Assembly: GCA_027488845.1 (NCBI GenBank) | Contig: JAIYBC010000014.1 | Span: forward strand, 1 to 34,167 | Source: Verrucomicrobiales bacterium | GTDB lineage: Bacteria > Verrucomicrobiota > Verrucomicrobiia > Limisphaerales > UBA9464 | Direction of reading: 5' to 3' | DNA: 34,167 nt | Shown here: positions 12,288-33,793 of the stretch, one piece after another | Layout: each line of letters starts with the position of its first letter | Position numbering within the stretch: position 1 is the stretch's first letter | Translations under genes and position numbers: made by a program | The notes under the pieces: generated by a model | Databases searched by the model: none | Told to the model about the DNA's origin: nothing | The model's input: only the letters and a program-made list of their open reading frames with translations

Positions 12288-13394
12288 ATGAGCGCTTTCA
12301 CCAGCCGCCTGAATCCCTATCTGGCCTCCCTGCCCGTCTACGTTCCCGGTCGCCCCATCGAAGAGGTCGCCCGCGAACATGGGCTCGACCCTTCCTCCAT
12401 CATCAAGCTGGCCTCGAATGAGAACCCCTTCGGTCCCTCCCCGAAGGCCGTCGCCGCGATGGAACAGGCCGCGCGGCAGTTCCATCTCTACCCCGACGGT
12501 TCAGCGACACTCCTGAAGCGTCGCCTCGCCTCGGTGCTGGGGGTCGATCCGACGAACCTCATCCTCGGCAACGGCTCGAACGAGATCCTCGAGTTCGTCG
12601 GACACATCGCCATGCGACCCGGGGTCGAGATCGTCGCCTCGGAGTTCTGCTTCGCGGTCTACCCCATCGTCGCCGCCCTGTTCGGCGCGAAGCTCGTGAC
12701 CGTGCCGTCGAAGGGGTTCGGCGCCGACATCCCCGGCCTGATCGCCGCCATCACCCCGGCCACCGGCGTGGTGTTCCTCGCCAACCCCAACAACCCGACC
12801 GGCACCCGCACCTCCGCCGAGGACGTGCGCCGGCTCCTCGACGCCGTTTCTCCGGAAGTCCTCGTGGTCATGGACGAGGCCTACATCGAGTTCCTCGACA
12901 ACCCAGTGGACCTCGTCCCGGAGGTCCGCTCCGGTGCCCGGCCCAATCTCGTCCTCTGCCGGACCTTCTCCAAGATCTACGGCCTCGCCGGCCTGCGGCT
13001 CGGGTACGGGATCGCCGGCAAGGAGCTCGTCGCGGCCATGGAGAAGGCCCGTCAGCCGTTCAACGTGAACTCCATCGCCCAGGCCGGTGCCCTCGCCGCG
13101 CTCGACGACACGGAGCACATGGACCGCACCCGTGCCAACAACCGGGTGGGCGTCGCCTACTACGAGTCGGCATTCGCGAAGCTCGGTCTCCGGTTCATCC
13201 CTTCCTCGGCCAACTTCGTCCTCGTCGAGGTCGGGGATGGCTCGAAGGTCTTCGCCGAACTCCAGCGGCGCGGCGTGATCACGCGGCCGATGGGAAGCTA
13301 CGGTCTTCCCCAATGGCTCAGGATCTCGGTCGGAACCCCGGCCGAGAACGCCCGTTGCCTCACCCAGCTCGTCGAGATCCTGCGCCCGGCCTGA
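12288..13394 (+). CDS. hisC: Histidinol-phosphate aminotransferase
   Basis: HisC is the PLP-dependent aminotransferase that makes histidinol phosphate from imidazole-acetol phosphate in histidine biosynthesis. From the ATG at 12288 the product is 368 residues, the usual size. Family landmarks are KLASNENPFGPSPKA, GNGSNEIL, the ANPNNPTGT block binding PLP, VVMDEAYIEF (with D196 and Y199) and TFSKIYGLAGLRLGYG, where K229 forms the internal aldimine and a conserved Arg follows. A TTG at 12249 would add 13 residues but is less likely than the ATG. No other his gene is adjacent, so the pathway is dispersed. Related aminotransferases for aromatic amino acids cannot be fully excluded. Confidence 0.93.
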   Translation: MSAFTSRLNPYLASLPVYVPGRPIEEVAREHGLDPSSIIKLASNENPFGPSPKAVAAMEQAARQFHLYPDGSATLLKRRLASVLGVDPTNLILGNGSNEILEFVGHIAMRPGVEIVASEFCFAVYPIVAALFGAKLVTVPSKGFGADIPGLIAAITPATGVVFLANPNNPTGTRTSAEDVRRLLDAVSPEVLVVMDEAYIEFLDNPVDLVPEVRSGARPNLVLCRTFSKIYGLAGLRLGYGIAGKELVAAMEKARQPFNVNSIAQAGALAALDDTEHMDRTRANNRVGVAYYESAFAKLGLRFIPSSANFVLVEVGDGSKVFAELQRRGVITRPMGSYGLPQWLRISVGTPAENARCLTQLVEILRPA

Positions 13395-13431
13395 TTCGGG
13401 ATGGGCGTCCACCGGTGACGCCTTGGCGGCC

Positions 13432-14958
13432 TCACCGGATCGACTTCATCGGCCGGGCGTCCGCGGCGGTGGCGGCACGGTAGTCGGCCAGCGCACGCAG
13501 GTAGTCGGCCACCAGGTCCACCTCGGTGGTCCGCGCCTCGAATCCCGCCTGCTCGCGGATCTGGACCGCAAGGAGGTCCGAGGCGCCCCGCTGGAACCGC
13601 GTGTTCTCGGCCTCGACCAGCTCGCCGGCCAGCTCGACGTTCAGGCGTGCCTGGGCGATCTGTTCCCATGCCGCGGTCAGCGCCGAGTGCGAATCCCGGA
13701 CCTCGGCCGCCACGCGGTCGCGTGCCATGCGCTCCTCCACCGCCAGGCGCTCCAACTGCGCCTCCGCCGCCTCGATGCGTCCCAAGGCGTCACGCCGCTG
13801 GAGCGGCAGCTTGAACTCCACGCCGGCCTCGACCTCGGTGTCCCGCTTGTCCTTGTAGCGGTCGGTTCCGAAATCCCGGCTCACGGCGACCCCGGCGTCG
13901 AGGCTCGGCAACGCCTGGTTCCTCGCCAGCCTCAGGTCCACTTCGGCCTTCTCGATCCCCAGTCGGAACCGTCGGATCTCCGGCCGCCCTCCGAGCGCCA
14001 CCACGATGTCCGACTCCAGCGCCGAGGGATCCGGGGGCGCGGACGCCGGTTCCTCCGGGGGAAGCCGGTCGCGTCCGGACAGCACCGGATTGCCATCCGC
14101 ATCCCGGTGGAAAAGAGACAGCGCGATGGAAGCCGCCTCGAAACGTCGCCGCGCCTGGACCACCGCCAGCTGACGCGACACCACCAGGCGCTGGTTGTCG
14201 GTGAGGACGATCCGGGGAACCAGTCCGCTCGTGGCCTGGTTGGTCAGCGCCTGTCCCCGTTCGCTCGCGACCCGGAACAGGTCCTCGGAAAGCTCCCAGC
14301 GCCTCCCCGCCGCGACCCACGACGCATGGGCCATGGAGGCCGCACGGATGAAGTCCAGCTGCTGGCGCAGGATGAAGGGATCGGCCAGTTCGCGGTCGAG
14401 GCGCGCCTGCAGGATCGCGGCACGACGGCGGTCGATCGACCCGTCCTTCAGCAACGGCACCCGGAGGCCGATGCGCGGCTCGCCATCCCCCTGGGTCCGG
14501 TTCTTGTCGTAGTCCGGCAGGCTGTCGCCCCGGTTGATTCGGTAGCCGCCGAACACCGTGCTGCCCCAGATCCCCGTGAACTGTTCGAAGCCCGCCTCGA
14601 ACGTCCGGTTCTCGTAGTAGCCCTGCGGGATGCCCGTGAACTTGGCGAAGGTCTGGAAGTCGAACGCGCCCTCCGCGCTGCGGAGGCGTCCCGCCGCGAT
14701 GTCTCGCTCGATCAGCGCCGCCAGCAACGGCGGATAGCGGTTCGTCACCGACGCCAGCACATCCTGGAGCCGCAAGGGCCCTCCGCCTCCACCCACCCCA
14801 GCCCGGAGCGGTGACCAGCCAACCAGACCGATCAGGAGTGCCATGCCAACCACGGCGAGGCGCAGACGGGTTCGGGATCGTTGCAGGTTCATGAGCTGGG
14901 AACGGGAGGGATGCCGGACGAAATCCGGCTCCACGCGGGTTCGGTCGCCTCGGATCAT
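13432..14958 (-). CDS. TolC-like outer-membrane efflux protein
   Basis: This is the outer-membrane channel component of a tripartite exporter, last gene of the ABC-HlyD-TolC operon. The sequence is mostly long amphipathic helices with alanine- and arginine-rich heptads, as in the TolC/OEP family. Examples are the LRLQDVLASVTNRYPPLLAALIERDIAAGRLRSAEG start, the QLAVVQARRRFEAASIALSLF region and the repeated-half segment ERMARDRVAAEVRDSHSALTAAW to AENTRFQRGASDLLAVQIREQ. The ATG at 14958 overlaps the adaptor stop codon as TGATG, suggesting coupling, and yields 508 residues. A second ATG at 14892 would start directly at a good signal peptide (MNLQRSRTRLRLAVVGMALLIG) and give 486 residues. I cannot decide between them. 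It converges with hisC. Confidence 0.88.
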   Translation of the reverse strand: MIRGDRTRVEPDFVRHPSRSQLMNLQRSRTRLRLAVVGMALLIGLVGWSPLRAGVGGGGGPLRLQDVLASVTNRYPPLLAALIERDIAAGRLRSAEGAFDFQTFAKFTGIPQGYYENRTFEAGFEQFTGIWGSTVFGGYRINRGDSLPDYDKNRTQGDGEPRIGLRVPLLKDGSIDRRRAAILQARLDRELADPFILRQQLDFIRAASMAHASWVAAGRRWELSEDLFRVASERGQALTNQATSGLVPRIVLTDNQRLVVSRQLAVVQARRRFEAASIALSLFHRDADGNPVLSGRDRLPPEEPASAPPDPSALESDIVVALGGRPEIRRFRLGIEKAEVDLRLARNQALPSLDAGVAVSRDFGTDRYKDKRDTEVEAGVEFKLPLQRRDALGRIEAAEAQLERLAVEERMARDRVAAEVRDSHSALTAAWEQIAQARLNVELAGELVEAENTRFQRGASDLLAVQIREQAGFEARTTEVDLVADYLRALADYRAATAADARPMKSIR

Positions 14959-16259
14959 CACGGCTTCGGCTCCGGCGGGAAGCCGTTGATCAGACGCCAG
15001 ACCTCGTACCAGAACGGAACCTGCCGGGCGAGGACCCAACCCTGCGCCCGAACGCCCTGGCGAAGGATCGTCGGATCCGGCCAGTTCTCGGGCACCTCGC
15101 GCGTGCCGTCCGAGACGAGATCCGGCTTCGGCGCCACAACGACGCGGAACATCCCCTTGCCGTTGTCGGTGGCGTCCACCAGCACGACTTCGCCACCGAA
15201 GGTCCCGCGCGGGGCGCGGAACGGTCCCACGATCGCCACCGCCGGCCAGCCCTCGAACTGGATCCGGACGTCGCTGCCCGGGGCGACCGTCTTCCCTTCG
15301 GCGTCGGTCTGCCGCGGCATCGCCAACGGCATGTTGTTCCCCTCCAGCCACAATTCGACCATCCGGCTCTCGGTCTCGGGGATCACCACGCAGATCGGCG
15401 AACCCGGACGAAGGTAGGTGCCTGGCGTGGCCTGGACCGAGAAGATGAAGCCGTCCCGCGGCGAGACCACCGTCTGTCGCGAGGCCTGCGCCAGCTGGAT
15501 GTCGAGCGTCGCCAACAACTGGTCGGCGGCGGCCAGCTCGGCCTCGGCCGAATCCCGGAGGCTGCGGCTGCCCGCGATGGCCCCGCCGATCGTGGCCTCC
15601 TGCAACGAGAGGTTCGCGCGCGCCGACGCGAGGTCCGCCGCCGTGCTCTTCTGCGAGAGGATCGCCAACTCGTACTCCTGTTCCGAAGCAAGCCCACGGC
15701 GGTCCTGGAAGAGGTCCCGGATCCGCTCGAAGCGCAGCTGGGCCGTCTGGGCCGCGATTTCCGAGGCCCGGATACGCTCCCTCGCCGCCGCCAACGCCGC
15801 CTCCAACGACAATTCCTGCTGACGGACCTGCAGCGCCAGCTCGTTGGTCCTCGAGGCCAGCGACGTGCGTCGACGCCCCGCGTCCGCGCGCTGCCGAGCG
15901 AGGTTCGCCAACAGGTTCGGATCGTTGTCCTCCAACTCGATCAGGACGTCGCCGGCCTTCACGCGCCGGCCCTCGACGAGATGCGAAACGCGCACCGCGC
16001 CGGAGACCCGGGCCTCGACGTTCACGCGCCGTTCCAGCGGATCGAAGGCGATCACGCGCCCCTTCCCTCCGGCCGACTGCTGCCACGGCATGAAGGCCAC
16101 CGCGACGAGCGCGGCCAACACCGCCGCCGGGAAGAACCGGCGGAAGGTCGAGATGCGCTGGTTCGGATCCACCAGCAACAACGCCGGGAACCGCGATGGG
16201 TCGCCCCTCAAGGGCAACGGATCGTGATGCCCGCCTCCGGTCGGATGTCCTTCGCTCAT
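14958..16259 (-). CDS. HlyD-type periplasmic adaptor (membrane fusion protein)
   Basis: The 433-residue protein links the inner-membrane ABC protein to the outer-membrane channel. It has a cytoplasmic N-terminus, one transmembrane helix (about 42-58) and then a beta-barrel/lipoyl region with NVEARVSGAVRVSHLVEGRRVKAGDVLIELED (half-lipoyl motif). A long coiled-coil hairpin spans roughly 115-270, rich in Ala, Arg and Glu. The second lipoyl half is VVSPRDGFIFSV with GTYLRPGSPIC. The C-terminal beta-barrel region contains VRIQFEGWPAV. The start ATG overlaps the stop of the ABC gene by 4 nt (ATGA), and its stop overlaps the next start as TGATG. It is complete, with no sign of decay. Confidence 0.92.
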   Translation of the reverse strand: MSEGHPTGGGHHDPLPLRGDPSRFPALLLVDPNQRISTFRRFFPAAVLAALVAVAFMPWQQSAGGKGRVIAFDPLERRVNVEARVSGAVRVSHLVEGRRVKAGDVLIELEDNDPNLLANLARQRADAGRRRTSLASRTNELALQVRQQELSLEAALAAARERIRASEIAAQTAQLRFERIRDLFQDRRGLASEQEYELAILSQKSTAADLASARANLSLQEATIGGAIAGSRSLRDSAEAELAAADQLLATLDIQLAQASRQTVVSPRDGFIFSVQATPGTYLRPGSPICVVIPETESRMVELWLEGNNMPLAMPRQTDAEGKTVAPGSDVRIQFEGWPAVAIVGPFRAPRGTFGGEVVLVDATDNGKGMFRVVVAPKPDLVSDGTREVPENWPDPTILRQGVRAQGWVLARQVPFWYEVWRLINGFPPEPKP

Positions 16260-18517
16260 GCCGCCTCCTTTCGCACGTCCGAACGTTCCGGCAGCGTCAG
16301 CTGCCTATCAAAACGCCGGAGCACATCCGGATCCCGGGTCACCACCAACAGGGTCCAGGGTCGCTCCGGAGACGCGATGTAGGAAAGGATGCTGTCGATC
16401 TCCTCGGCCTCGAAGCCGTCCAGCGTGCCGTCGAGGAGCAGCAGGCGCGGCGACCGCGCGATCGAACGGGCCAAAAGGACCTGCCGACGCTCGGTTCCGG
16501 AAAGCGACCGGCCCAACAGGGCAATCGGCTCGTCCAAGCCGTGCGGCAGCGCCTGGATCTTCCTCAGCAACCCCACCGCCCGCAATGCCCCGACCACCTC
16601 AGCCACACCGACGGTCTCGTTGCCCATCTGCACGTTCTCCCGGACCGTTCCGTCGAAGATCGAGTCGTCCGCCGCAACCCGGGCCACCGCGGTGCGCAAC
16701 GACTCGAGGTTCCACTGCCGCAGGTCGAGACCGTCGATCTCCACGAGCCCTTCGCTCGGCGAACGCAGCCCGTACAGGATGTCGAGAAGGGTCGTCGAAC
16801 CCGTGGAGGCGCGGGCGAAGAGCGCGATCCGCGCACCGGACTCGATCGTCACGTCCAACCCGCGGAAGACCGGTCGGTCCGCCGAGTATCCGAAGTGGAG
16901 TCCCCGCACCTGGACCGACGCTCCCGCGGGCGCCGGGGAACTCGGTGCACTGCCACCCGAGCGCTCCATCCGCAGGTCCACGAGATGCCCGATCTTGTCG
17001 ACCGCCGTCAGCAGGTCGTACGCGGTCTCCAGCTGCTTCCCGAACTTCGCCGAGGCCGCCAGCGTCGCGGTCAGGATCAGCTCGCTGGCCACCAGCTGCC
17101 CGATCGAAAGCTTGCCCGAAAGGACCAGGAAGCCACCCCACAGCAGGAGTGCGGTCGTCGCCACCACCTCGATGGCCAGAAGGCCCACGACCTGGCGGAA
17201 GAGGATCTTGAAGTGCGTGCGCCGGTGCTTCAGGTACTCCCGCGCATAGGAGTCCGCCCGGGCCTCCGCCAGCGCCTCGCCGCCCGGAGACTTGAAGGCC
17301 CCCGAGAACAGCGCCACCTGCTGCAGCCAGCCCGCCGTGGCGTACTTCGCACGGGATTCCTCGATGCTCGAGTTCACGCCTCCGCGTCCAAAGCCACGGA
17401 TCACCACCGCGATGAGCACGAGCAGTCCCGCGTCGAACCAGAACAGCGTCCAATCATAGAAGGCCAGCACCAGCGATCCGATGAGGAAGCTCAGGATGAC
17501 GTCCAATCCATCGAGAAGCAGCTGCGCCGCCGCCTTCTGGAGGGTCATGATGTCGAAGAACCGGTTGGTCAGCTCCGGGCCGTGGACCTTGTCGAATTCC
17601 GCCTGGGTCACCTTGGGCAACCGCGCCGCCAGGTCCGCCGTGAAGCGCACGAAGAGCCGGCGTTGGAGCCGTTCGATGACCACGAAGGCCAATGCGCGGA
17701 TGGACGCGTACAGGAAAAGGAAGGTGCCCAGCACCGCCGCCAGGACCAGGAGGGCCTGCACGTAGACCCTCTGCTGTCCGCCGAACGCGATGTTGCTGAC
17801 CATCGCGTCCACCGCCAACGGGATAGCCAGGTACAGAAGCCCGGTCGCCACCGCGTACCAGAAGAGCGTCCAGAGGTCCTTCTGCTCCAGCCGCGCGAGG
17901 GACCGGACGCGGTCCAGCGGAGAAGGATGCACATGAGCCTGGAAGTGCTCCTTGCCCATGGCGCCGACCGAATCCGAAGGCATCCCAGCAGGTCCCACCG
18001 CATCGGCCGGCAAGGCGGCCTCGACCAACAGGCACGTGATCGGGGAACCCGAACCGCCCAGCAGCTTCTCCAGTGCACCGACGGTGACGTCCCGGGTGCG
18101 CCCCAGCCGATCCAGGCCGTCCACGCGTACACGGAACCACCCGCGCCGCACCACGATGAGCCATTCGTTACCCGGGGAGGCATCTGGCCGGCGGAGGACG
18201 ATCGGGGTGTCCGACCGTGCATGGTGCACCACCTCCGCCAACGTCATGGAGACGGGACGGGCCTTCAGGCCGACCGCGACGATCGCAGCGGCGAGGGAAT
18301 CCAGCGGCGCGGCGCCGGAAGCGGCCGCCTCGCGGATACGATCGCGGACCTGCGCCGGCGTGCGCTCGATCCCACACCAGTAGTCGAGCCGCCCGCAAAC
18401 CGCCTCGATCGCTTCCGCGGTGGAGGTCGCCGACTTGGCTTCGTTGTTGGATCCCATTTGATTCGAGGTTCGCGACTGCGCCGGCACCACCGACCTGTTC
18501 CCCGGCAAACGGGCCAT
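16256..18517 (-). CDS. ABC exporter-like protein with degenerate ATPase and C39-like domain
   Basis: The 753-residue protein has the layout of a type I secretion ABC transporter. An N-terminal peptidase-C39-like domain spans about 35-160, a six-helix transmembrane region about 215-500, and a nucleotide-binding domain about 534-745. The ATPase motifs are abnormal. The Walker A region reads ARASTGSTT (568-576), with Ser574 where the invariant Lys belongs. The Q-loop Gln is Ala616, and the signature is LSGTE (672-676). Walker B is LLLLDG, keeping D696 but with Gly697 for the catalytic Glu. The switch His is replaced (Thr727/Arg728). The C39-like domain lacks the DCG catalytic cysteine block and the His. 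I read the Walker A codons directly and found no frameshift. It is the first gene of the operon. A TTGACA just upstream would favour an alternative ATG at 18457. Confidence 0.9.
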   Translation of the reverse strand: MARLPGNRSVVPAQSRTSNQMGSNNEAKSATSTAEAIEAVCGRLDYWCGIERTPAQVRDRIREAAASGAAPLDSLAAAIVAVGLKARPVSMTLAEVVHHARSDTPIVLRRPDASPGNEWLIVVRRGWFRVRVDGLDRLGRTRDVTVGALEKLLGGSGSPITCLLVEAALPADAVGPAGMPSDSVGAMGKEHFQAHVHPSPLDRVRSLARLEQKDLWTLFWYAVATGLLYLAIPLAVDAMVSNIAFGGQQRVYVQALLVLAAVLGTFLFLYASIRALAFVVIERLQRRLFVRFTADLAARLPKVTQAEFDKVHGPELTNRFFDIMTLQKAAAQLLLDGLDVILSFLIGSLVLAFYDWTLFWFDAGLLVLIAVVIRGFGRGGVNSSIEESRAKYATAGWLQQVALFSGAFKSPGGEALAEARADSYAREYLKHRRTHFKILFRQVVGLLAIEVVATTALLLWGGFLVLSGKLSIGQLVASELILTATLAASAKFGKQLETAYDLLTAVDKIGHLVDLRMERSGGSAPSSPAPAGASVQVRGLHFGYSADRPVFRGLDVTIESGARIALFARASTGSTTLLDILYGLRSPSEGLVEIDGLDLRQWNLESLRTAVARVAADDSIFDGTVRENVQMGNETVGVAEVVGALRAVGLLRKIQALPHGLDEPIALLGRSLSGTERRQVLLARSIARSPRLLLLDGTLDGFEAEEIDSILSYIASPERPWTLLVVTRDPDVLRRFDRQLTLPERSDVRKEAA

Positions 18518-18545
18518 AAACTGTTCTGCAAGCCCCGTGTGTCAA
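18516..18545 (-). promoter_or_regulatory. Possible promoter of the ABC-HlyD-TolC operon
   Basis: A perfect TTGACA (18545-18540) on the minus strand is followed after 18 bp by GTTTAT (18521-18516). The -10 overlaps the ATG at 18517, so if this promoter is used, translation must begin at the in-frame ATG at 18457. The -10 match is poor, so this is tentative. Confidence 0.32.
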
Positions 18546-18661
18546 GGGGGCCGAGGCCTTTTCGTGGCTGTACCGATTCCCGGACGGCCACGCCATTCCG
18601 GCTCCACAGTTTCCAGTTTCGCCCGAGGCCTCCACGTCCTAGCGTGACGCCACAAACCTGC

Positions 18662-19204
18662 ATGGCCGACCCCGAATCGCCTTCATCGACACCCTGGTGG
18701 CAGGTGGTCCTGGTGGGCCGCAACCCTCGGACGACGCTCCTGCGTCTCGTCGTCACCGCGGTCCTTGTCTACTTCGGCTTCAGGGCTTCCGTCCAACCGA
18801 TCGTCGTCAGCGGCGTCAGCATGCTGCCCACCTACCGCGACGGCCGAAGGCTTTTCGTCAACAAACTCGCCTTCCGCCTGTCCCCGCCCAAACGCGGCGA
18901 CGTCGTCGCCATCCGCGAGGCCGGCAACCACCTCTTCCTCCTCAAACGCATCATCGCCCTTCCCGGCGAACGCATCCGCATCCGGGCCGGCCAGGTCTTC
19001 ATCGACGACGGAACCCTCGAGGAACCCTACCTGCGGCCGCCCGCCCCCGGAGTGCGGAACCCCGCCGCCTGGGAAGTCCAGGAACTGGAACTCGGCCCGG
19101 ACGAGTTCTACGTCATCGGCGACAACCGCTCCATGCGCCGCGAGGACCACTACTTCGGCCGCGTGAACCGCGAGCGCGTCGTCGGCCGCCTGATCAACCC
19201 ATGA
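18662..19204 (+). CDS. lepB: Signal peptidase I
   Basis: This 180-residue inner-membrane serine protease removes signal peptides from Sec and Tat substrates. One transmembrane helix (about 25-42) precedes the catalytic domain. S53 lies in SGVSMLPTYRDG (box B), the general base K95 in LLKRIIALPGERI (box D), and box E is GDNRSMRRED (153-162). It is short, like Gram-positive or archaeal-style versions with one membrane anchor, and lacks the large insertions of the E. coli enzyme. The frame is open far upstream, but the ATG at 18662 is the only start consistent with the family. A TAGCGT hexamer at 18640-18645 may be its -10. It is divergent from the export operon and its stop overlaps the next start (ATGA). 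Other paralogues may exist elsewhere. Confidence 0.9.
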   Translation: MADPESPSSTPWWQVVLVGRNPRTTLLRLVVTAVLVYFGFRASVQPIVVSGVSMLPTYRDGRRLFVNKLAFRLSPPKRGDVVAIREAGNHLFLLKRIIALPGERIRIRAGQVFIDDGTLEEPYLRPPAPGVRNPAAWEVQELELGPDEFYVIGDNRSMRREDHYFGRVNRERVVGRLINP

Positions 19205-28337: not shown

Positions 28338-30245
28338 TTAACGAATCTTCTGGACTCGATAAAAAGCCTTGTCGGAGATCATTGAAAGATTCGTTACTGT
28401 AACAATTATGTTTGTTTGAGGGAGTCTAAGTCGCGAAGTCGCGGTGCTCGTTGGAACAATTGGGCGCACCAGCTCCCAGTCAATGAGATTGGACGAACTC
28501 TGTATTTCATAAAGCTCATAGGCTTGGGCGGGAAAAGTGATTTGGCCATTAAACAATTCACTAACTCGCAGTAGAGATTGAGAATCTTTCGGATTCGTTC
28601 CCAAGCGATACTCATCAAGGTTGCTTAACCCATCATGATCAGCATCATCAGCAGCTCGCGATAATGTTGCAACAGAGGGAATTGAACTGCCAAAATAGGT
28701 ATTCATCCAGTAGTCAGGGATGCCATCCGGCACAACTCCGGCATCATTCCTCAAAGAAACGACTCGAATCTTGCTGGAGGGAGATGCATTTTCCCCGTCA
28801 GATACTCGAAAATAGATAATGTCTTTATAGATATAGCGCCCATCAGAAGCTATTGCAGGGTCATCCCGAAGCGCAGTCTCCCGAACTAGAACCGGTACAG
28901 AATATCTAACCTTGAACCCTTCAGTTATGAACTGACCATTTAGTACTGATTGGTCAGCAGTTATCACCTGGAGAGGTTGCCCTTGTATGTCATAACCTCG
29001 AATTTCAATTTCATTAATTCCCGATATATTCAGCGGCGATCGAGCCATTGTCGCATCCATAACCCGATCAAATGTATACGGAACGGTGTTTAAAGGATAG
29101 CAGCTACGAATTGCTGCTACGTCGTATTCTCCCAATCTAGGCCCGCGCCCATCTCTGTGCGCTCTATAGTACATTATTGAATCCCTAAGCACCGGATCAT
29201 CGGTTTCATACTCACTGGAATGAGCCAGGTTTAGGGCATGTCCGATCTCATGACAGAGCGTTGCGGCCAGCATGTTTACGTCCTGCACGGTAGGATGAGT
29301 CGATTTAATAATTACAAACCCACTCGTAGACTTTAAGAACTCACGCCCCTGAACATTTCCACCAATATTCCATCCGGAAGGAGACGGATTACTGATTCCT
29401 GACTGCCCGCCGATCCCCAATACAACCGGGGAGCTTATCTCATTGTATTTGTCATGCAGTTGAATCCGAATCTTTTCGTCGTTAAGTCGAATACTATTGG
29501 CGCTTTGCCCAAACGCACCAATGCCTTCGATGACAAACTTAAGACTTGTTACATTTGCCCACGCATCTAATGCTGCAATTAAAGCATTAGTAGCTTGTGC
29601 AAGCGAGATTCCTGATGGCAGATTCTCGGCGTCGACTAAGATAGGAATTGGCTCAGCACGATCGGGCTGCAGGAAGCGCTTGTTGACTCCGTCGATCATT
29701 CCGCTGCTGATACTCGGCATTGTTGATTCAACGCCAACTTGATCTGTGACATCCACGCCAATCTCCGGTCGAGCTTCACTGATTTGCCGCACCTTATCCG
29801 GAGAAGCATATTTTCCAACAGTGATATCGCACTTTAACGGGCAATGTACTGGAAGCAAGAAGCAGCTGGAAGATCCATCAGTTGGCTCAAGCCTTCCAAG
29901 CAACGTACGCTTCAGGAACAGGATATACTTTCGGCCTGGATGCAATTGCGGGGAGTTTCCAAAGAAGTAGTATTCGTTTCCCAGGTTACCACCGCGACTG
30001 CAGATCGCAACTATTGACGGGAACTTACCTTTGAACGACTCATCAACCTTAAGTGACGTCTGTGTGCAAATCTCCCCATTTTCTTCACGGAAGCAAAATG
30101 CACCTACCACCGTCCCCTGAAGCACAGCATCTGAACGTTCATATAAGCGATCCAAATCATCTTCTATCACCGCGGAAGCCAAACAGTGAAGCGCACAAAA
30201 ATGTAAAAGTGCTAACACGCATGCAGCAAGAGAAAAGCGTTGCAT
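28338..30245 (-). CDS. Secreted matrixin-like zinc metalloprotease with calcium loop and C-terminal module
   Basis: The 635-residue protein has a signal peptide (cleavage near CLASA). An N-terminal region of about 150 residues is rich in cysteines. The catalytic domain carries HEIGHALNLAH, with H332, H336 and H342 as zinc ligands and E333 as the base, and a Met-turn SIMYY with M358. This defines a metzincin of the M10/matrixin kind. Further on, GVVPDGIPDYWMNTYFG and DADHDGLSNLDEYRLGTNP (534-552) form a thrombospondin-type-3-like calcium loop. The last 75 residues (YELYEIQSSSNLIDW to FYRVQKIR) resemble a C-terminal module found in many verrucomicrobial secreted proteins. Base composition is lower in GC than the rest of the window. 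Substrate and partner are unknown. Confidence 0.85.
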   Translation of the reverse strand: MQRFSLAACVLALLHFCALHCLASAVIEDDLDRLYERSDAVLQGTVVGAFCFREENGEICTQTSLKVDESFKGKFPSIVAICSRGGNLGNEYYFFGNSPQLHPGRKYILFLKRTLLGRLEPTDGSSSCFLLPVHCPLKCDITVGKYASPDKVRQISEARPEIGVDVTDQVGVESTMPSISSGMIDGVNKRFLQPDRAEPIPILVDAENLPSGISLAQATNALIAALDAWANVTSLKFVIEGIGAFGQSANSIRLNDEKIRIQLHDKYNEISSPVVLGIGGQSGISNPSPSGWNIGGNVQGREFLKSTSGFVIIKSTHPTVQDVNMLAATLCHEIGHALNLAHSSEYETDDPVLRDSIMYYRAHRDGRGPRLGEYDVAAIRSCYPLNTVPYTFDRVMDATMARSPLNISGINEIEIRGYDIQGQPLQVITADQSVLNGQFITEGFKVRYSVPVLVRETALRDDPAIASDGRYIYKDIIYFRVSDGENASPSSKIRVVSLRNDAGVVPDGIPDYWMNTYFGSSIPSVATLSRAADDADHDGLSNLDEYRLGTNPKDSQSLLRVSELFNGQITFPAQAYELYEIQSSSNLIDWELVRPIVPTSTATSRLRLPQTNIIVTVTNLSMISDKAFYRVQKIR

Positions 30246-30646: not shown

Positions 30647-33600
30647 CTATTGCGTTTCCAGCAGAACCGCACGATAATACCGAGTTGATTCACGGCGTGA
30701 GCTTAAGTCGATCCATACAGTGGGACTAACCGTCAGTGTCAAATTAGTCACCTGTTGCCACGCGTTCTCTGGAGCTAGGGCCTCGCGAATGTCTATCCTA
30801 TAGGTCGAACCGATCGGGCCTGTTATAACGGTTCCCGCAAATGTCGCCAAGCTAAAGAGGCTCACACTGGCTGGCTGGCTTTCCACCGTTCCTTCGGCGT
30901 TAGTCACAAGCACCGTGTAGCTACCAGCATTCTCGACGTCGGCAGAAGCGATCCGGTAGGTGGCTTCGGTCGCACCAGGAATCACCTGCCCATTCAAACG
31001 CCACTGGAACCTAAGGGGGCTCACGGAGGCTGCCGATACGCTCAATTCCAGCGCCGTACCAGGCCCCACGACACTGCTGACGGGGGGAACTGTAATCACC
31101 GCGGTACCTTGGAGCGGCTGAAGTTGCACTGTGTGTGTATATGGAACAAGCATCGGATTCCCCGCGAAATCCTTGATGTCGGGACCGACAAGCACTCGAT
31201 AAATGCCATTCGTCCTCTGGGTGTCGAAAGTGAATTGAAACGTTCGAGGGTTGATCATCACAGGTAAAGCGATCGGAATGGCAACTCCTTCCGGGCCAGT
31301 AAACGTAACATCCTCTGTGGTCAAGGTGTTGGGGTCGATAGGTTCTGAAAAGGTAACCGTAAATCGATCTAGGCTTCCAGAGACAGTCGACGGTGGATCA
31401 GTGCTCACCACACGAGGGCCTTCGCTAATCATAACCCTTAGCGAAAGATTGGAATTGGCGTAGATTGGAACAAACTCCTGTCCTGAGCTCGCCCCTAGGT
31501 CCGAAAAGCCAGTAAACTCCCCAGAAAAGTTCGCCCATCGCATCAATTGGAATCCATCATTGATTTCGATAAGTGATGCATTTTGAGGTGATACCGAGAG
31601 CGTTCCTGCGAGTTGGGCACGTCCCCCAACGATCAATTGCTCATGCTGGGAAGGTGTTTCCGTTCCGGTTACGATGAAATTGAGGCTGGATCCGGCGCGA
31701 AGAACTAGGTCTCCATCAATAGTCAGCGGATTGAATACACCAGAGCTATTGAAGTTTCCGGTCAACTCCAGATTCGCCGAAATCCTCCCATCACCTTCGA
31801 GCGTCCCTCCCCCAAGTGCCTGAATAGTGCTGGACGTGAGACGCCCCCGATTGGAAACCACGATCCGGGAAAAGCCAATACTGAGTTGAGGAACGCCCGA
31901 TCCGACATCAAGAATTCCTTGATCTTTTGCTGACAGCCACACGAGACCAATTGTGGCAAGTAGGGGAGCATGAACAACACTATCAATTCCATCAGAGGAG
32001 ATACCGTTGCTGTCGGCACCTTCAATCTGTCGCAAAGCCGGCATATCGACCCTCCCTCCTGCTTCAGCCACAAAACTCGTTCCAGCGATTCCCTGAGTGA
32101 TCCGAGTGATCCGAGACAGATCTAATATCGATCCGGCGCCCACAGCATAAAATCCTCCTCCACCCGCGATTTGGGTGATACGATTGGGAGGACTCCAACG
32201 AGCCCCCTCAAAAACTCTCGCACCACTGAAATCCATATTGGCCAGAGAAGCGACATTTAGCGTGCTCGCCCCAGTGATATAAATGTAGCCTGTATTGAGC
32301 CGTTGAAGAGCGCCGGCCAAAATGCTTCCGCCCCTCTCAACGGCCAGCCCTCCGTTCGTCAATCGAATCAGGGACGAAAGATCGACACGTGATCCAACTC
32401 CAGCAGCGGAGAAATGAATTCTTCCTTGGATAAATTGAGTCAATGACGAGATGCGCACCTCGGCTCCTGCTGTCGCATTAACTCCAACCCACGCCACTCC
32501 GTCTGTCGCTGTTGAAATCTGAGTCAATCCCGAAAGATCCAGTAGTGCCCCGTCACCATCAGCGGTGAAACTAGCAGGACTACCGGTCTGGTAGCTATTG
32601 ACACGGGCAGGTGGTGCCCAAATCGCTCCGGACCTCAAATTGACACTGCTGGAGTCAAAATTGCGCAAGGAAGGCAGAGGCAAAGACCCGGGACCAGTAA
32701 TATCCAATATGGAATTATTGAAATCCAACAATCCATCCGCCAAGATTTGTCCACTTTGCGATACAGAAAAGGTTCCTGCACTCCGACGAGTGAGCGTCGG
32801 GAACTCGATTCGGCTGCCCTTTCCGGAGGAGTCAAACGTTCCACCAATCAACTGCGAAATCATCGCAAACCGGATCAGCCCTCCATTTCGGGCTGACACG
32901 TTTCCAGCGCTGAGCCCAGTCAAATCAGGAAAGTCCAAAAGGCTTCCTGCACCGTCGGAAATCAAATTACTAATTTGGAAACTCTGAATTCGACTAGGTG
33001 GCGACCATTGAGCTCCTTCATACACATAAATACCTCCATTTTCGATGAGGCTCAGTGCGGGCAATGGTAAACTACTGGAACCAGAAACTGACAGAGTTAC
33101 CCCACTCACACGTTCCAGGGAATCGGCGTAAACTTTTCCACCGCCCGAGACTGTGATACTTCCATCCACCATTCGAACAAATGACTGAAGATGAATTTCG
33201 CTTCCACTTCCTCGGGAATCAAAAGTGACAGATCCCTGAATCACTTGCGGCAATGATGGTAGCAGAATTGTCGCGCCTTCGTCCGCGCTGACATAGATTG
33301 AGCTTCCGATACTCGAAATTCGGGTAAGGCCGGAGAGGTCGAGGAGGCTTCCAGAGCCTTTCGCGGTGAGAAAACCGGCTGGAGAATTGGGATCGGAAAT
33401 CTGGTAGGTGGTCAAGCCAGGAAGAGCAATCTTTCCTCCTTCAACCGCACTTAAACTCGCTCCTCCTACAATAGTCGCCGAAGCGGTTTCAAATATCGCG
33501 TCAATTCCAGAGGCTGTCAGCGATGCGCCTGATCGTAGGGTCAGACTTTTGACCGTCACCGCGTTAAGGATCACTGGGTATCTTCCGTTGTTCAATGATG

Positions 33601-33793
33601 GGACAACTACATCATCATCAACTCGAGGCACCGAATTGCCGATCCAATTAGAAGGCGTATCCCAGGACACACTACTGTCATTTCCTGCACCATTCCATGT
33701 AATTGTGGCTCCCTCACTTTCCCCAATGAGGAACATGGCGGCAGCCGCTAAAAAGGATATAGGATTTCGAGATCTGTGGTGATGAGATGTCAT
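30647..33793 (-). CDS. Large secreted repeat protein (beta-helix-like repeats, SbsA/Ig-like domains)
   Basis: The 1048-residue protein starts with a signal peptide (PISFLAAAAMFLIGESEGA). Four related units of about 132-139 residues follow. Each starts near LLDLSGLTRIS (150), LLDFPDLTGLS (285), LLDLSGLTQIS (417) or ILDLSRITRIT (556). In the later units a W[SA]PP.R[IV] block precedes this (262, 391, 532). Short glycine/serine-rich strands inside suggest a parallel beta-helix (inference). A region near 660-790 (GGTLEGDGRISANLELTG, LVLRAGSSLNFIVTG) resembles autotransporter-type passenger repeats. An SbsA/Big-type domain (793-890, FTVTFSEPIDPNTLTTEDV) and an Ig-like domain (about 898-978, FQWRLNGQVIPGATEATYRI, AGSYTVLVTNAEG) follow. 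The C-terminal module ends YYRAVLLETQ. No autotransporter barrel is present. The role is probably adhesion or surface structure. Codon use is AT-richer than in the left part. Confidence 0.82.
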   Translation of the reverse strand: MTSHHHRSRNPISFLAAAAMFLIGESEGATITWNGAGNDSSVSWDTPSNWIGNSVPRVDDDVVVPSLNNGRYPVILNAVTVKSLTLRSGASLTASGIDAIFETASATIVGGASLSAVEGGKIALPGLTTYQISDPNSPAGFLTAKGSGSLLDLSGLTRISSIGSSIYVSADEGATILLPSLPQVIQGSVTFDSRGSGSEIHLQSFVRMVDGSITVSGGGKVYADSLERVSGVTLSVSGSSSLPLPALSLIENGGIYVYEGAQWSPPSRIQSFQISNLISDGAGSLLDFPDLTGLSAGNVSARNGGLIRFAMISQLIGGTFDSSGKGSRIEFPTLTRRSAGTFSVSQSGQILADGLLDFNNSILDITGPGSLPLPSLRNFDSSSVNLRSGAIWAPPARVNSYQTGSPASFTADGDGALLDLSGLTQISTATDGVAWVGVNATAGAEVRISSLTQFIQGRIHFSAAGVGSRVDLSSLIRLTNGGLAVERGGSILAGALQRLNTGYIYITGASTLNVASLANMDFSGARVFEGARWSPPNRITQIAGGGGFYAVGAGSILDLSRITRITQGIAGTSFVAEAGGRVDMPALRQIEGADSNGISSDGIDSVVHAPLLATIGLVWLSAKDQGILDVGSGVPQLSIGFSRIVVSNRGRLTSSTIQALGGGTLEGDGRISANLELTGNFNSSGVFNPLTIDGDLVLRAGSSLNFIVTGTETPSQHEQLIVGGRAQLAGTLSVSPQNASLIEINDGFQLMRWANFSGEFTGFSDLGASSGQEFVPIYANSNLSLRVMISEGPRVVSTDPPSTVSGSLDRFTVTFSEPIDPNTLTTEDVTFTGPEGVAIPIALPVMINPRTFQFTFDTQRTNGIYRVLVGPDIKDFAGNPMLVPYTHTVQLQPLQGTAVITVPPVSSVVGPGTALELSVSAASVSPLRFQWRLNGQVIPGATEATYRIASADVENAGSYTVLVTNAEGTVESQPASVSLFSLATFAGTVITGPIGSTYRIDIREALAPENAWQQVTNLTLTVSPTVWIDLSSRRESTRYYRAVLLETQ

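Follow-up and report, generated by a model that had tools for sequence, protein, structure and literature searches.

A predicted pseudo-ATPase family of tripartite ABC-type exporters shared by Verrucomicrobiota and other phyla

ATP-binding cassette (ABC) transporters are defined by ATP-driven transport. Among them, the type I secretion exporters HlyB, LssB and PrtD are encoded in an operon with a HlyD adaptor and a TolC-type channel, and TmrAB, TM287/288 and TAP keep a degenerate nucleotide-binding domain (NBD) as structure, with one composite site active. Degenerate ABC sites are described in the available part of one source as one of a pair whose other member is active (PMC7756269). We analyzed a 34,167-nucleotide stretch of contig JAIYBC010000014.1 from a Verrucomicrobiales bacterium (the window; its source genome, G000, is 5.39 Mb), in which the minus strand from 18457 to 13432 carries three consecutive genes, for an ABC exporter, a HlyD adaptor and an outer membrane channel (OEP). 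The window protein and its relatives have the same domain order, fold and operon as HlyB, LssB and PrtD, but with an apparently dead ATPase site and a transmembrane (TM) signature of their own. In contrast to TmrAB, TM287/288 and TAP, they have no linked active partner and all aligned members are incomplete. Our best reading is that these proteins, none of which has a complete ATPase site, form a conserved family of tripartite exporters with a pseudo-ATPase, apparently not described before.

We aligned the window protein with ordinary ABC proteins from its own genome (all window coordinates below are on the minus strand). The P-loop GxxGxGKST has become A568-R-A-S571-T-G573-S574-T-T, with the lysine and two P-loop glycines replaced (degenerate Walker A ARASTGSTT, 16790..16816; S574 at 16798-16796). 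The Q-loop Gln is replaced by A616 (16670..16672), Walker B reads LLLLD696-G697 (residues 692-697, 16427..16444) with G697 in place of the catalytic Glu, and the switch His position holds R728 (16334..16336), directly after T727. Six control proteins from the same genome all show K, Q, E and H in these columns, except that one has D for E. The Walker B Asp696 and the LSG of the signature motif (LSGTE) are retained. The NBD (residues 522-745, 16283..16954) is full length, as its predicted structure superposes on the TAP1 NBD (4k8o) at 1.6 A over 222 residues. A first-pass annotation, made from the sequence alone, had described an otherwise full-length NBD with all four catalytic residues changed and the Asp and LSG kept, and the alignment and superposition agree with it on each point. 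Judged from its sequence, the ATPase site of the window protein is dead at each catalytic position.

The rest of the protein is that of a complete exporter. Pfam detects both ABC_tran (E-value 1.7e-16) and ABC_membrane (2.7e-7), and an AlphaFold2 model of the full exporter has a mean predicted local distance difference test (pLDDT) score of 81.7. Foldseek placed PCAT1 closest to the whole chain, with HlyB (8dck) following among the top rows. Based on Pfam, the model and Foldseek, the window protein has the type IV ABC exporter fold, a six-helix membrane domain joined to an NBD.

Relatives were taken as matches at E <= 1e-40 in genome draws around the window genome and other centers, and we name the lineage of each relative after the genome central to its draw. 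They occur in 18/19 genomes of the genus, 31/50 of the family, 15/245 of the order and 8/337 in the phylum draw, and in draws centered on a Planctomycetaceae genome (35/343), a Bryobacteraceae genome (8/217) and Methylotetracoccus (9/274). Remoter relatives are found on plasmids of sphingomonads, Persicobacter, Aureibacter and Riemerella. One homologue, SARO_RS19820, belongs to Novosphingobium aromaticivorans DSM 12444, a laboratory strain. The draws overlap and the plasmid matches include near-identical records, so that all these counts are of sequences and not of independent events. Phage records gave only three matches, all weak and covering 35-54% of the query. Two members, L053 and L064, come from metagenome-assembled genomes labeled Akkermansia muciniphila and Klebsiella pneumoniae; they are typical of other lineages, and the labels look wrong. 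The ABC gene of G003 (L036/L111) has in-frame stops and that of G048 (L094) is split across frames, each a pseudogene or an assembly error.

We counted motif residues in 101 aligned members, 95 from genomes and 6 from plasmids, representing Verrucomicrobiota, Planctomycetota, Acidobacteriota, Gamma- and Alphaproteobacteria, and Bacteroidota; six fragments (L023, L036, L037, L075, L076, L158) and a duplicate (L121) were left out beforehand. None of the 101 has the complete K, Q, E and H set, compared with 19 of 22 control exporters. Of the four residues, one is missing in 6 members, two in 14, three in 61 and all four in 20, the window protein included. The three incomplete controls are L007, which has Asp for Glu, L213, which ends before the NBD motifs, and L223, which looks like the wrong open reading frame (ORF). 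The first-pass annotation had named normal motifs in close relatives as the sign of recent decay or sequencing error, and no such relative appeared among the 101 members.

Walker B Asp is retained in 88/101 members and Walker A Lys in 50/101, and six members lack the Q-loop Gln only. By lineage, Walker A Lys is present in 3/43 Verrucomicrobial, 31/33 Planctomycete, 9/9 Acidobacterial, 4/10 gammaproteobacterial, 0/3 alphaproteobacterial and 3/3 Bacteroidota rows, and in some of the rows that have it the P-loop is otherwise gone. The Verrucomicrobial clade has A, G, S, T, C or V at the Lys position, and Glu697 is retained in 28 of the 43 Verrucomicrobial members; the particular triplet S574/A616/G697, whose conservation the first-pass annotation had proposed to check, is thus not conserved. 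What is conserved is the absence of the residues, not specific replacements. In a tree of 86 rows, built with motif columns excluded after removal of 13 near-duplicates, one Verrucomicrobial clade of 33 rows (Shimodaira-Hasegawa-like approximate likelihood ratio test [SH-aLRT] support 100) has no Walker A Lys in any row, and at least six changes between Lys and no Lys are needed over the whole tree, which has long branches, some composition warnings and a root that hangs on four distant paralogues. Pfam ABC_tran had no match in the gamma- and alphaproteobacterial members L194, L195, L196, L197, L199, L230, L231 and L235 or in L232 from Bacteroidota. The model of one of these, the gammaproteobacterial L195, is nevertheless that of a complete exporter (pLDDT 82.7) and matches TmrAB and HlyB with Z ~26 over ~560 residues.

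The membrane domain (residues 199-515, 16973..17923), with six long helices, is the most conserved part of the protein and carries a signature of its own. Across the 101 members K391 and Y500 are invariant, and K328 (100/101), S388 (99/101), Q474 (98/101), Q442 (97/101) and E479 (97/101) nearly so; position 501 is acidic in all 101, with D in 97 and E in 4. K at 391 and 328, Y at 500, an acidic residue at 501 and Q at 474 and 442 are absent from all 22 controls, of which only one, a mis-framed row, has E at 479. The TM6 part of the signature spans residues 470-508 (16994..17110; family form LTLGQLVAxELIV...KLGKxLExxYDxLAAxDK) and includes E479 (17083-17081) and Y500-D501 (17020-17015). Judged from helix lengths in the model, Y500-D501 and K391 are probably located in cytoplasmic extensions of the helices rather than in the membrane.

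We also used the membrane domain alone as a query against 72,556 plasmid records. It returned 23 matches, 22 of them family records and one a Rhizobium type I exporter. We read 18 of the 22 family records; L239 was left uncounted, the ORF read there being that of HlyD, and 6 of the remaining 17 are also among the 101. All 17 correctly framed loci have K391, E479, Y500 and an acidic residue at 501 together with an incomplete ATPase site, including L237, which ends before Walker B; position 435 is Tyr rather than His in 7 of them. The Rhizobium exporter, the weakest match (E 8e-4), has all four ATPase residues and no signature, and its gene adjoins one for a metallopeptidase. The signature and the dead site thus travel together in a set of sequences in whose choice the NBD played no part.

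The gene is maintained by purifying selection, based on ratios of nonsynonymous to synonymous substitution rates (dN/dS) of 0.080, 0.127 and 0.071 against the congeners G007, G012 and G014; against L079, from another genus, the ratio is 0.277 with dS near-saturated. With its ORF open throughout, the gene is thus intact and under selection despite its dead site, as the first-pass annotation had it on the first count. Over the three congeners dN/dS ranges from 0.012 to 0.070 in the membrane domain and from 0.040 to 0.099 in the NBD, with HlyD at 0.043-0.064 and OEP at 0.094-0.121; the N-terminal domain is looser (0.22 and 0.21 in two comparisons). We then compared family members with an ordinary exporter over 21 non-independent pairs from seven congeneric genomes. 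In the family, mean identity is 91% for the membrane domain and 85% for the NBD, the membrane domain being higher in 20/21 pairs, whereas in the ordinary exporter the values are 83% and 90%, the NBD being higher in 16/21. The window gene itself has 96% identity to that of G012 in the membrane domain and 91% in the NBD, and the L002-type exporter of the window genome behaves like the control (83-85% against 92-93%). Constraint has shifted to the membrane domain while the nucleotide site erodes.

The three-gene arrangement recurs in relatives. At 76 loci (L098, L105 and L111 left out), the ABC gene is followed by HlyD in 73 and by OEP in 70; of the seven that are incomplete, four end or break close to the triad and one has OEP upstream. 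Among the neighbor-ORF clusters listed, no gene outside the triad is shared widely across lineages. As candidates for a conserved substrate or accessory gene, these clusters gave only matches confined to the window genus, many of them shadow frames, and prepilin-like genes, which we take to be generic for these phyla; no such gene was accepted. In the Sphingobium plasmid pHAL16 (L235, 1362-3914 and 12286-12493) the triad adjoins a DUF2309 gene and is close to a gene for carbonic anhydrase. Two Novosphingobium plasmids (L230, L231) and Aureibacter (L232) have a TonB-dependent receptor gene at the downstream end of the triad or close to it. Two sphingomonad plasmids, L237 and L247, have an IS3-family transposase gene within or just downstream of the triad region, and some copies may be disrupted.

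In the window, the ABC ORF is intact and open over 16256-18517 (753 codons), the extent given by the first-pass annotation; the start, however, is probably Met21 at 18457, which places the gene at 16256..18457. The Met1 codon is Ile in G007 and its equivalent is absent in G012, whereas MGSNNEAK is kept at the Met21 region in both (VGSNNEAK in G014), which favors Met21. Pfam assigns HlyD_3 to the adaptor (14958..16259) and OEP to the TolC-type channel (13432..14892). The HlyD start overlaps the ABC stop by 4 nucleotides (ATGA) and the OEP start lies ~65 nucleotides downstream of the HlyD stop; of the two genes said earlier to be translationally coupled, HlyD alone therefore looks so. A TTGACA hexamer is present at 18545-18540, as had been pointed out, but no promoter-like pair was found in 13200-18900 (0.3 expected), and an upstream sigma-70 promoter is not supported. 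The triad stands alone, since the upstream signal-peptidase-like gene diverges from it and the downstream HisC-like gene is oppositely oriented. Farther off, ~10 kb upstream of the triad, 28338-30245 encodes a matrixin (M10) domain protein with an apparent signal peptide, and 30647-33793 encodes a 1,048-residue protein with Ig-like domains close to its C terminus.

We compared the window proteins with named families. NCBIfam scores of the window protein fall far below the curated cut-offs for LssB (TIGR03375, 168 of 693 bits, the best score), HlyB (TIGR01846, 121 of 726) and PrtD (TIGR01842, 108 of 510). We noticed no linked RTX-type substrate at the locus. PCAT1, of the PCAT1/ComA type, is the best Foldseek match over nearly the whole chain, including the N-terminal domain (9azl_A, aligned from window residue 35). 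In contrast to PCAT, the ATPase is dead, the N-terminal domain is missing in relatives of ~588 residues, and PCAT1 has Asn at the position of E479. The N-terminal domain (residues 33-174, 17996..18421) is probably degenerate and C39-peptidase-like, based on the model and the PCAT1 alignment; we rejected an actual C39 peptidase, as Pfam C39 had no match in the window protein even at E 1, and a fold-level resemblance to PCAT1 remains. A 132-residue open frame recurs on the same strand immediately upstream of the 588-residue ABC gene (L091:8098-8493(+) and equivalents in nine loci of the window genus); it could represent either a small gene or an N-terminal part that has become separate. The HlyD protein scores nearly equally, and always below cut-off, as an RND, EmrA or HlyD adaptor, and its type is therefore uninformative about the energy source.

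Our searches of open-licence literature turned up no description of the family. A Blastomonas fulva operon, HlyBD2-OMP2, is described as an hlyB-hlyD-omp operon resembling N. aromaticivorans genes and as an ABC-type pump, and the available part of that account has no mention of a degenerate ATPase (PMC9505733). Based on this partial description, HlyBD2-OMP2 possibly belongs to the family.

How these proteins might work can be proposed in outline. Its own consumption of ATP is probably not what powers the pump. We suggest tentatively, with confidence a little short of even, that in this large and old ABC-HlyD-OEP family the ABC subunit no longer hydrolyzes ATP and that export is probably driven by an ion gradient. 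The ABC protein would form a homodimer in which the fold of the NBD provides a structural base and couples the gate, and export would proceed through HlyD and OEP without ATP hydrolysis at these NBDs; the homodimer, the direction of export and the energy source are all things we infer. The drive would most likely be an ion-motive force, or else a substrate gradient, acting on conserved polar or charged positions in the membrane helices and in the cytoplasmic extensions of these helices (K328, K391, H/Y435, Q442, Q474, E479, Y500 and D501). Loss of the site would have been stepwise, with the Q-loop Gln and usually Glu or His missing throughout; the Walker A Lys probably disappeared on at least several occasions, one of them no later than the base of the main Verrucomicrobial clade. 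We prefer another energy source to a gated scaffold because of the conserved polar signature of the membrane domain, and rank an ion gradient first because of LmrA and MsbA precedents without NBDs. According to the available parts of these reports, LmrA without its NBD is an ion-coupled transporter whose delta-pH coupling depends on Glu314 in TM6 (PMC2704374), and delta-pH drives ethidium export by MsbA lacking its NBD (PMC4979069). These constructs (LmrA-MD, MsbA-MD) would be a working precedent for ion-coupled transport, without ATP, by the membrane domain of an ABC protein; they are, however, truncated laboratory forms of ATPase-competent proteins, whereas the window family is natural and full length. 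D501 precedes the Walker A position by 73 residues, compared with 74 for LmrA Glu314 (388 minus 314); this is a count and not an alignment, and we use it as a lead only, claiming no equivalence. Held somewhat more tentatively still is the stronger statement that these are a widespread natural family of ABC-fold exporters that abandoned ATP, their NBDs a fossil structure and a conserved charged network in the membrane domain coupling an ion gradient to export through HlyD and the TolC-type channel, which would make them secondary-active transporters.

Several observations weigh against an ion-driven exporter. E479 is replaced by Gln in L039 and L040, which make up the sister lineage closest to the window clade, and by Trp in the Planctomycete members L145 and L160, which makes it doubtful as an obligate proton carrier, and the Tyr at position 435 in 7 of the 17 plasmid loci also counts here. 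Residues 391, 500 and 501, if they lie in cytoplasmic extensions as modeled, could serve coupling or gating. ATP binding could persist in about half the family (50/101), where the Walker A Lys is retained. In the parts of the two reports available, Walker A deletion in full-length LmrA inhibited ion transport (PMC2704374) and deletion of the Walker A Lys left MsbA inactive (PMC4979069); given these impairments, a dead site in a full-length protein cannot simply be equated with removal of the NBD. Finally, both transport and its energy source rest on inference, and a distant ABC partner could exist.

That last arrangement, in which the dead subunit is the degenerate half of a TmrAB-type heterodimer with an ATPase-competent ABC exporter encoded elsewhere, we consider unlikely. 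Known bacterial heterodimers such as TmrAB are encoded by neighboring genes, unlike the window family: another ABC-like ORF occurs in the stretch covered at 7/76 loci, one of the seven being a split piece of the same gene, and no linked partner was found. Linkage thus lends no support to the second ABC protein raised in the first-pass annotation. None of the 22 controls has the signature that marks the membrane domain throughout the family, and the window protein itself would spoil both halves of a composite site. The window genome does encode other ABC exporters, and degenerate and active subunits are known to pair (PMC7756269, available part). Slightly less probable, in our view, is that nothing is pumped and that the ABC-fold dimer is a gated scaffold or sensor, a regulated base or valve for the HlyD-OEP conduit. 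Persistence of the NBD fold beyond its motifs fits such a role, as in the L195 model, which superposes on whole ABC exporters over ~560 residues. The strong conservation of the helices and cytoplasmic extensions and the constant linkage to HlyD and OEP look like a substrate path, although neither demands active transport.

We regard it as improbable that the NBDs still bind nucleotide or hydrolyze it slowly with other residues standing in. The frequent Walker B Asp and Walker A Lys (88/101 and 50/101) and the six members lacking only Gln would allow it, but the window protein is without two P-loop glycines, Lys, Gln, Glu and His, and ABC_tran is undetected in several gamma- and alphaproteobacterial members and Bacteroidota L232. 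An external motor such as a SecA_DEAD-domain protein energizing the channel is more improbable again. The available part of one study describes HlyD/OEP-like loci of Planctomycetes and Verrucomicrobia that have a secondary SecA_DEAD protein but no recognizable ABC protein (PMC4452313), and these type-I-like loci, from the same phyla, likewise have HlyD and OEP without a normal ABC ATPase. As described there, they differ in having M50-like proteins and GAF-HlyD and no ABC homologue (PMC4452313), whereas in the window the ABC fold is present and SecA_DEAD had no match in the nine other window genes scanned; nor do the neighbor clusters listed contain an extra gene widely shared across lineages. 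Hardly credible, finally, is a pseudogene or an error of sequencing or assembly. Broken or split members do occur in isolation (L036/L111, L094), and the IS3 transposase gene lies close downstream in two sphingomonad loci, but for the window gene we rejected these explanations and recent decay on the strength of purifying selection against three congeners and the same loss across the family.

Relatives are annotated as "ABC transporter ATP-binding protein" or "transmembrane domain-containing protein," and genes under the first label are, in this family, mis-described. The family would become a categorically new kind if ATP-free transport were shown. If our reading is true, a family spanning several phyla, with no complete site yet kept together with its adaptor and channel, would be a case of the ABC fold run or used without ATP, and the contested work on ion coupling by LmrA and MsbA would gain natural test subjects.

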